Part shown: positions 18,561 to 20,046 of the stretch, piece by piece
Layout: every line of letters starts with the position of its first letter
Numbering within the stretch: the first letter of the stretch is position 1
Assembly (NCBI GenBank): GCA_001897535.1
Contig: MKTC01000016.1
Coordinates: 958-64,957, forward strand
DNA length: 64,000 nt
Origin: Bacteroidetes bacterium 37-13
Lineage (GTDB): Bacteria; Bacteroidota; Bacteroidia; Chitinophagales; LD1
Direction: 5' to 3'
Program-made: the position numbers and the translations under genes
The notes under the pieces: generated by a model
What the model was told of the DNA's origin: nothing
What the model saw: the letters and a program-made list of their open reading frames with translations, nothing else
Database searches by the model: none

Positions 18561-19718
18561 TTACTCCTTCAAAAATTTTACTCTCTGTTTTAAACCGTTG
18601 GTAAAAGTAACTTCTGCAAAATATACTCCGCTTGTGTTTATTCTATTTTCGAGCAAAATGGTTGTGTATGTTGTTGCTTTTATCTGTTGGCTGTAAATGT
18701 TTTTACCAGTTGCATCAAATATGCTTATCTGCTGCATTAGGTTTGCTCCACTTTTTATATTGATGCTGTTAGTTGCAGGATTTGGAAATATATTTACTCC
18801 ATACGCCTCACTACCGGCCGGTGTAGCCACAGCCGTTCCAGTATTTACGGTAACTTTTACTGTATCGTAGCTCCACCAAATACCTGCACAATCCTGTACA
18901 CTATCGCGCATGGCAATAACATAGTAGGTGCTGCTATCGGGGCATACTATGCCGCCACTAAAGCCATCTGCTATTTTATTGCCTGCGGCATCCTGCCAGT
19001 AAACCGTATCGTAAGTTGCAATGTTAGCAGTGGCGCTTAGCTCTATACAAGTACTGTTGGCTTTGGCAAAGGCAGTATCTTGTATGGTGGCAGTAACATC
19101 ATTGGCATTAAAGGGATATATATCGCTGAGGGCATCTAATTGTAGATTCCCTGTAACAGATGTTATTCCAATTCTAAAATGGATAAACTCATAATCTTGG
19201 AGTTTAGGTGTAAGTATGGCAGTATATTGATGCCAGCCAGTGTCTATTCCTTCGCTTTCATAAATTTTTTCAATACGATTACAAGTATCTGTGTTACCCC
19301 ATATTTGGAGTGTCTTTTTATTATAAAGAGAGTCTAAATTAAAAAAATCTGCCGCCCAATAAGTGATTTGATATTCTCGATTTCTTTTTAGTGAACAACT
19401 TAAAAACGTAGATAGGCTTCCTTTTAATGTATTTGACACATCACTAATCATAATACAAGTTTGCCCTGAATAGGGAAAAGCAGGATAAAAGGTAGTAGGG
19501 TTGCTAAATGTATTATCAATAACTGATACAAAAGAATCACAAAGAAAAAAGCCGGACAATGAACATGTATTTAAATAAACAAAAGTATCTATTGAACCAC
19601 CAACAAAAGCTATACACTTAGTGCCTTCCATCTCTTTATTTGTTACTATTATCTGCGCTATTGCTTGTTGATAAAAAGCAATAGCACAGATGATTATCTG
19701 TGCTATTGCTTTTATCAT
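18561..19718 (-). CDS. Secreted protein with T9SS type A sorting domain; start region in inverted repeats
   Basis: 385 residues. The N-terminal MIKAIAQIIICAIAFYQQ AIAQ can serve as a signal peptide cleaved after AIA. The middle (about 30-200) resembles a carbohydrate-binding jelly roll and the region 205-290 an Ig-like domain (CPDSSTYYVIA). The end is a T9SS type A domain (IFPNPATNS). No catalytic motif is seen. Codons 3-21 lie in an 18-bp inverted repeat plus a third copy (see 19651-19713), giving the peptide its repeated AIAQII. The ATG overlaps the stop of a 47-codon ORF (ATGA), suggesting coupled translation. Confidence 0.88.
   Translation of the reverse strand: MIKAIAQIIICAIAFYQQAIAQIIVTNKEMEGTKCIAFVGGSIDTFVYLNTCSLSGFFLCDSFVSVIDNTFSNPTTFYPAFPYSGQTCIMISDVSNTLKGSLSTFLSCSLKRNREYQITYWAADFFNLDSLYNKKTLQIWGNTDTCNRIEKIYESEGIDTGWHQYTAILTPKLQDYEFIHFRIGITSVTGNLQLDALSDIYPFNANDVTATIQDTAFAKANSTCIELSATANIATYDTVYWQDAAGNKIADGFSGGIVCPDSSTYYVIAMRDSVQDCAGIWWSYDTVKVTVNTGTAVATPAGSEAYGVNIFPNPATNSINIKSGANLMQQISIFDATGKNIYSQQIKATTYTTILLENRINTSGVYFAEVTFTNGLKQRVKFLKE
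19651..19713. repeat. Three-copy inverted repeat over a signal-peptide coding region
   Basis: A perfect 18-bp inverted repeat (19674-19691 with 19696-19713) encloses a 4-base loop. A third copy (19651-19666) matches the 19696-19711 arm with one change, in the same orientation. In the mRNA of the minus-strand gene the middle arm could pair with either outer copy, one pairing being perfect and the other having one G-U. The structure begins 3 bases after the start codon. Confidence 0.9.
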
Positions 19719-19858
19719 TTTAAAAGTATTTTACCGTTATATTTATTACCAGAAATTAAGCATTTAGCAATGGTTAAAACGAGAGGAAATGAAAATTGAC
19801 GGGTAGGATTTACCCCCCAATCATTAACATTTTTTAATGATTGTAGTTTGCTTTTCAT
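19715..19858 (-). CDS. Possible small ORF (47 codons) coupled to the T9SS gene
   Basis: An ATG at 19858 opens a 47-codon frame (MKSKLQSLKNVNDWG...) ending in TGA at 19717-19715, which overlaps the ATG of the downstream gene as ATGA. Such overlaps usually mean translational coupling. The peptide is basic (Lys-rich ends), without a signal peptide, and I do not recognise it. It contains a 10-bp hairpin in its DNA (19818-19843). It may be a real small protein, a leader peptide that sets expression of the secreted protein, or chance; at this length the frame alone is weak evidence. Confidence 0.4.
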   Translation of the reverse strand: MKSKLQSLKNVNDWGVNPTRQFSFPLVLTIAKCLISGNKYNGKILLK

Positions 19859-20046
19859 AACACAGGTTTTTAGAGCAGCCCGCTTGGGCATGCGGTGAGT
19901 AAATGGTTTGGTAAAGATATAACATATTTTTTAAATGCAAAAAAATACATTTACAAAGGCTAAGAATTATATGATTACGTAGAAATTATTTGAGATCATC
20001 GCTCGTTGGATTTCGATTATCCTAAGTTTATACTTGTTGCTTGTAT
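19719..20046. other. Noncoding interval between the T9SS gene and mevalonate kinase gene
   Basis: Apart from the possible 47-codon ORF, this 328-base interval holds a perfect 10-bp hairpin with a 6-base loop (19818-19827 with 19834-19843), a short GC-rich patch at about 19870-19895 with a GCCC/GGGC stem, and otherwise AT-rich sequence. It contains no recognisable tRNA or known riboswitch. It probably carries the T9SS gene promoter and the end of the mevalonate kinase transcript region. Confidence 0.5.

Follow-up and report, generated by a model that had tools for sequence, protein, structure and literature searches.

Recurring and possibly regulatory hairpins in the signal-peptide codons of a T9SS cargo gene and its relatives

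Why should the first codons of a gene for a secreted protein be built from three copies of one inverted repeat? The question arose in a 64-kb stretch of DNA (the window, analyzed at its full length of 64,000 nucleotides) from Bacteroidetes bacterium 37-13, an uncultured member of the Chitinophagales. A sequence-only reading had pointed out that, right after a start codon, two 18-bp arms form a perfect inverted repeat around a 4-base loop and a third copy follows; it had suggested either an element controlling translation or a template-switch event that was still fresh. The gene concerned encodes a protein of 385 amino acids with a Por_Secre_tail (PF18962, E 6.2e-10), the T9SS C-terminal sorting domain, and a signal peptide, the latter called by a simple rule with no trained predictor; the two together identify it as T9SS cargo. 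Its 5' end reads ATG ATA AAA GCA ATA GCA CAG ATA ATC ATC TGT GCT ATT GCT TTT TAT CAA CAA GCA ATA GCG CAG ATA ATA, and the encoded peptide, MIKAIAQIIICAIAFYQQAIAQIIV, contains the repeat AIAQII that had been ascribed to the arms. The features of the locus are collected in Table 1.

Table 1. Features of the window around the start of the cargo gene (window coordinates; arms and tail in gene sense)
Feature	Position	Strand	Remarks
T9SS cargo gene, 385 aa, signal peptide and Por_Secre_tail	18561..19718	(-)	second member of an ancestral two-gene unit
Start codon ATG of the cargo gene	19718-19716	(-)	
Arm 1, AAAAGCAATAGCACAGAT	19696..19713	(-)	begins 5 nt past the A of ATG
Arm 2, ATCTGTGCTATTGCTTTT	19674..19691	(-)	perfect complement of arm 1
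U-rich tail, TTTTTATC	19668..19678	(-)	downstream of the G-C part of hairpin 1:2
Arm 3	19648..19669	(-)	sits on the predicted signal-peptide cleavage site, between A-I-A and Q-I-I
Relic ORF, 47 codons	19715..19858	(-)	what is left of the ancestral upstream Ice_binding/T9SS gene: its start and its last codons
Junction of ~4.9-kb deletion	19747..19754	(-)	most of the upstream gene lost; 8-nt alignment overlap
5' block	19647..19932	(-)	97% identical to C21:102405-102691; stops right past arm 3

Coordinates, complementarity and shuffles all bore out the repeat as it had been described. Arms 1 and 2 are 100% complementary over 18 bp around a loop of 4 nt, while arm 3 repeats arm 1 in the same orientation (18/19 nt identical, offset 45 nt) and is an inverted copy of arm 2, to which it is 86% complementary across 22 nt, giving a 2:3 pairing of 16 bp with one G-U among them. 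The middle arm can indeed pair with either outer copy, so that hairpins 1:2 and 2:3 are mutually exclusive; folded alone they reach -25.3 and -22.9 kcal/mol, respectively. With 18 bp and this stability, hairpin 1:2 has the stable stem-loop of an intrinsic (rho-independent) terminator. The RNA from -10 to +100 of the gene has a dinucleotide z of -5.75 for stability against shuffles, and in the folded RNA hairpin 1:2 extends into the start codon. When the 64-kb window was shuffled 60 times with its dinucleotides preserved, perfect stems (loop 3-10) reached at most 13 bp, and that in a single case. We took hairpin base rates from ~860 kb of the organism's own genome and ~375 kb of its relatives, and in the own-genome sample the palindrome was the strongest hairpin within coding sequence.

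A search of the whole genome (G000) found two paralogs, on contigs C21 (102620 to the end, 59% amino acid identity) and C13 (175525 to the end, 53%), both cut by the contig ends. The C21 copy has the three arms of the window with a single substitution, A to G in arm 1, by which an A-U pair becomes G-U. The C13 copy has the same design in other letters, with a perfect 21-bp 2:3 stem (TATTATCTGCGCTTTTACATT / AATGTAAAAGCGCAGATAATA) and a 17-bp 1:2 stem that relies on G-U pairs. In all three genes either outer arm can serve as the partner of arm 2, and the cores of arms 1 and 3 lie exactly 45 nt apart. The repeat could in principle be a product of chance or an assembly artefact of a single locus, and the assembly is evidently repeat-limited here, C13 and C21 both breaking inside the paralogs; with the arms on three separate contigs in three sequence versions, and shuffles that never came near 18 bp, this explanation is in practice refuted and hardly credible. 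The breaks fall within the shared parts of the paralogs (C13:176181 and C21:103308), and a further contig starts with C-terminal fragments of further copies (C18:1-361), so the genome probably holds more than three paralogs. No recognizable copy of the gene was found in the same-genus genomes G001 and G002.

We aligned the arms of the three paralogs as 21-mers. Within a gene the arms are identical at 16-20 of 21 positions, whereas between the window and C13 arm 1 agrees at 11/21, arm 2 at 15/21 and arm 3 at 18/21. Arms 1 and 2 are thus more alike within a gene than descent predicts, and because of this excess the comparison indicates that they have followed arm 3, the arm that encodes the cleavage site. 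Such concerted evolution is the expected footprint of template switching, which is well supported as the means by which the arms are kept alike; concert alone does not imply function. The template-switch half of the earlier proposal therefore stood, since arms 1 and 2 track arm 3 inside each paralog, but "fresh" did not: the comparison dates the three-arm layout to before the paralogs diverged, and distant relatives too have hairpins in their signal-peptide codons, as described below. When the growing RNA was folded prefix by prefix, hairpin 1:2 formed first in all three paralogs. It remained the minimum in the window and C21, while in C13 the more stable 2:3 displaced it once arm 3 was made.

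The paralogs also record what once lay upstream. The C13 gene is preceded by an open frame of 1735 codons (~1.7 kaa) with an Ice_binding domain (PF11999, E 4e-25), and the stop of this Ice_binding/T9SS gene overlaps the start of the family gene as ATGA. Window positions 19647-19932 align to C13:170364-170552 and then to C13:175480-175594, and of the upstream gene the window and C21 retain no more than the beginning and the final codons; the stop of the window's relic ORF still overlaps the ATG of the cargo gene as ATGA. The deletion in the window's relic is in-frame and lies at a short repeat (source gene G000:C13:170312-175519). The C21 copy has the same junction, and the deletion therefore preceded the duplication. 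The C21 relic ORF is frameshifted: a run of Gs (window 19812-19818, a C run on the + strand) counts six in the window and seven in C21, and from its sequence it could be a slippage site. The proteins of the window and C21 genes are 59% identical versus 97% for their 5' block, and the end of that block at arm 3 resembles a gene-conversion tract halted by a repeat.

To place the element in a wider setting we delimited a close family of 14 genes by profile searches of the order. Three are those of the own genome, one is in another genome of the same bacterial family (G022), and the other ten are spread over six genomes of two other families (G044, G070, G082 and G092; G087 and G118). A class-wide search returned weaker homologues only, mostly multidomain, and no further independent relatives were found in the contig collection, in which two matching contigs proved to be genomes already in the set. 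Strong hairpins with arms unrelated to those of the window occupy the signal-peptide codons of G087 (ATTTGGGAGTAGCA/TGCTACTCCCAAAT), G044 (AGTTGTGCAAGGTGTT/AGCACTTTGCACAACT, then TTTTT), G070a (nested, TGGTGGCTGC/GCAGCCACTG within TTGTGCAAA/TTTGCACAA) and G070b (AGGGGTTGCC/GGCAGCCCCT). The hairpin of G118a, AAAACGCCGATGT/ACATCGGCGTTTTTT, lies immediately 5' of the likely start and not inside the codons, that of G118b is modest, and no noteworthy signal-peptide hairpin was present in G022, G092a, G092b, G082a or G082b. The element is present in three of three paralogs, and distant members of the family have strong hairpins of unrelated sequence in the corresponding codons. Elsewhere in G022, a locus with ~20-nt tandem repeats (GGAGTAGATACTC/AAACTT; L128:3474-3551) forms a 37-bp imperfect stem that is unrelated to the signal-peptide hairpins.

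We compared the family with 283 signal-peptide-like starts picked mechanically in the same genomes, family members included, whose median hairpin score was 6.3. A score of at least 10.5 was reached by 6/14 family genes versus ~7 of ~270 other signal-peptide genes (Fisher p 6e-6), and by 4/12 when the three paralogs were counted once (p 5e-4); both p-values are indicative, as the 10.5 threshold was set after the data had been seen and the relatives' contigs were picked for holding the gene. At least 2 of the ~7 non-family starts at this level are doubtful open frames. None of 23 more distant superfamily members scored 10 or more, the listed L056 being the family gene G070a and so excluded. A signal-peptide gene of G044 that is unrelated to the family also holds a terminator-like hairpin (L120:14669-14706, score 13.3) with a T-rich tail in its signal-peptide codons; this gene begins 5 nt after a zinc-ribbon-like gene.

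Could the hairpins be a by-product of the peptide? We shuffled synonymous codons and found the observed stability matched in 0/300 shuffles each for G087, G070a, G070b and G044 and in 1-2/300 for the three paralogs. Because shuffles that keep the peptide (almost) never match the stability, the pairing is no by-product of it, and a peptide-driven hairpin was rejected on the failure to reproduce it in G087, G044, G070a and G070b. A known RNA family was rejected as well, as nothing in Rfam matched at the gathering score, and so was a dispersed repeat or MITE: the arms are confined to the paralogs, and single matches with 1-2 mismatches are scattered as by chance.

The check that had been suggested for selection on RNA structure, compensatory changes in the arms, turned out negative. 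Column-wise tests of covariation and pair retention between relatives were not significant (P 0.15-0.94), and we dropped them as proof of selection. An excess of G-U over A-C (11 vs 3 by hand count) was left unused for the same purpose, since T-rich composition favors G-U.

These results bear on a purely mutational explanation, by which quasi-palindromes in weakly constrained signal-peptide codons are lengthened and homogenized by replication template switching and are functionless and transient. It would account for arms that evolve in concert, for perfect stems with short loops, for the lack of significant column-wise covariation and for hairpin turnover between sister genes (the G082a protein is 56% identical to that of G044 and its gene lies in the same operon type, yet only G044 has the hairpin); template switching is moreover known to create perfect hairpins in one step and to maintain them (PMC8794818). 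It also predicts like hairpins in signal peptides at large, where only the 7/270 starts reach the threshold, some of them not genuine, and the enrichment is specific to the 14-gene family, with 0/23 in the wider superfamily. A mutational hotspot in tolerant codons is thus a serious rival, possible without being probable, and what weakens it most is how seldom other signal peptides of the same genomes have such hairpins. We regard the hairpin in signal-peptide codons as a recurring and possibly regulatory feature and no one-off accident.

What might it regulate? For 9/14 family genes the next gene upstream on the same strand is, or judging from relics once was, a T9SS gene. Those of C13, G087, G044, G070a and G118a follow large T9SS genes with ends that overlap, abut or lie close, and in C13, G087, G044 and the window the stop of the upstream frame overlaps the start. 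A hairpin in or just 5' of the signal-peptide codons was seen in 7/9 genes behind a T9SS gene versus 1/5 others (one-sided Fisher 0.063, a hand count in which the upstream side of G082b is cut by a contig end). The association has exceptions in both directions: G070b has a hairpin yet no adjoining upstream gene, and G092a and G082a are operonic yet have no strong hairpin.

Several hairpins are followed by U-rich tails. The tail of window hairpin 1:2 scores 4.0, in the top 1.6% of background positions, and the four Ts at its beginning are at the same time pairing partners of the A-run in arm 1. Scored from the last G-C pair onward, window 1:2, C13 1:2, G044 and G118a have tails that fall in the top 0.3-2.2% of background positions and resemble those of intergenic hairpins in these genomes (median 4.1), on a scale that T-rich hydrophobic codons inflate. 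Tail scoring found no U-tail at C13 2:3 or G070a, and a terminator scan flagged the window palindrome solely on the opposite strand.

The second half of the earlier proposal, control of translation, can be weighed against this context. In this explanation ribosomes that reach the second gene's signal peptide meet a hairpin that slows or gates them, either as translational coupling to the upstream gene or as a pause for targeting, and transcription is not terminated. The four stop/start overlaps agree with it, as do the reach of window hairpin 1:2 into the start codon and the hairpin of G070b, which has no upstream gene. The hairpins of C13 (2:3), G087, G044 and G070, in contrast, begin 29-59 nt past the ATG, beyond the initiation site, and several carry terminator-like U-tails, so that we think it unlikely. 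The same distances led us to reject RBS occlusion as a general mechanism. Of the earlier claim, then, the notion of a control element gained from the family-wide enrichment, while the compensatory changes lacked significance and occlusion of the RBS fitted poorly.

A terminator or attenuator between co-transcribed genes is the better fit to the gene context. Long-stemmed internal terminators whose U-tracts are weak or paired are known to set the stoichiometry of operons (PMC9045158), and translating ribosomes block the formation of terminator hairpins (PMC5021804). The most likely role, which we propose tentatively from sequence, is a terminator-like attenuator between two T9SS genes that is written into signal-peptide codons and renewed by template switching. 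The hairpin would terminate transcription of the upstream gene leakily. Given the overlap of the two genes, it could only be placed within the second gene's signal-peptide codons, where coding constraint would be weak. There it would lower transcription of the second gene or make it translation-dependent: a ribosome on the overlapping stop/start would hide part of arm 1, which disfavors 1:2 and frees arm 2 for pairing with arm 3. Template switching would keep the arms matched. In the window the upstream gene would have collapsed to a 47-codon leader ORF with the ATGA overlap retained. A regulatory role, most likely attenuation of this kind, is plausible and unproven.

A more specific, translation-gated form of the attenuator can be imagined. 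Hairpin 1:2, which can have a U-tract after it, would terminate, and hairpin 2:3, which competes with it, would not; whether a ribosome occupies the stop/start overlap would decide between them. Template switching would renew the arms in concert, with arm 3, at the cleavage site, anchoring their sequence. We consider this form rather doubtful.

If the hairpins are functional, signal-peptide codons, tolerant of much sequence variation, would offer tightly packed operons a site for RNA control elements. The gene family would then be a natural test of template switching as supplier and maintainer of regulatory hairpins, because arm sequences turn over yet a hairpin returns at the same place. If they are non-functional, the family points to a local and so far unexplained hotspot for template switching.

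Attenuators of the trp type are ribosome-mediated and use alternative hairpins. Unlike such ribosome-mediated attenuators, the element described here comes without known regulatory codons or ligand. It resembles the BmrC/BmrD attenuator of Bacillus subtilis in having mutually exclusive hairpins beside a short upstream ORF and a start/stop site, and differs in that the putative terminator hairpin forms first and lies within the structural gene (PMC4191407). The internal intrinsic terminators in the ABC importer operons of Ruminiclostridium cellulolyticum likewise place a stem-loop after the first gene of an extracellular-protein unit, with a long stem and a weak or partly paired U-tract, but they stand between genes, whereas our candidate terminator is embedded in the following gene's signal-peptide codons (PMC9045158). 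Perfect arms, a short loop and concerted changes in several arms are shared with template-switch quasi-palindrome mutations, from which the element differs in having three arms, not two, and in recurring in one gene family (PMC8794818, PMC7202029). Perfect inverted repeats inside protein-coding sequence are also known from the mitochondria of Nematomorpha (PMC6649704); those described here are bacterial, confined to one site per gene, and placed at the signal peptide.
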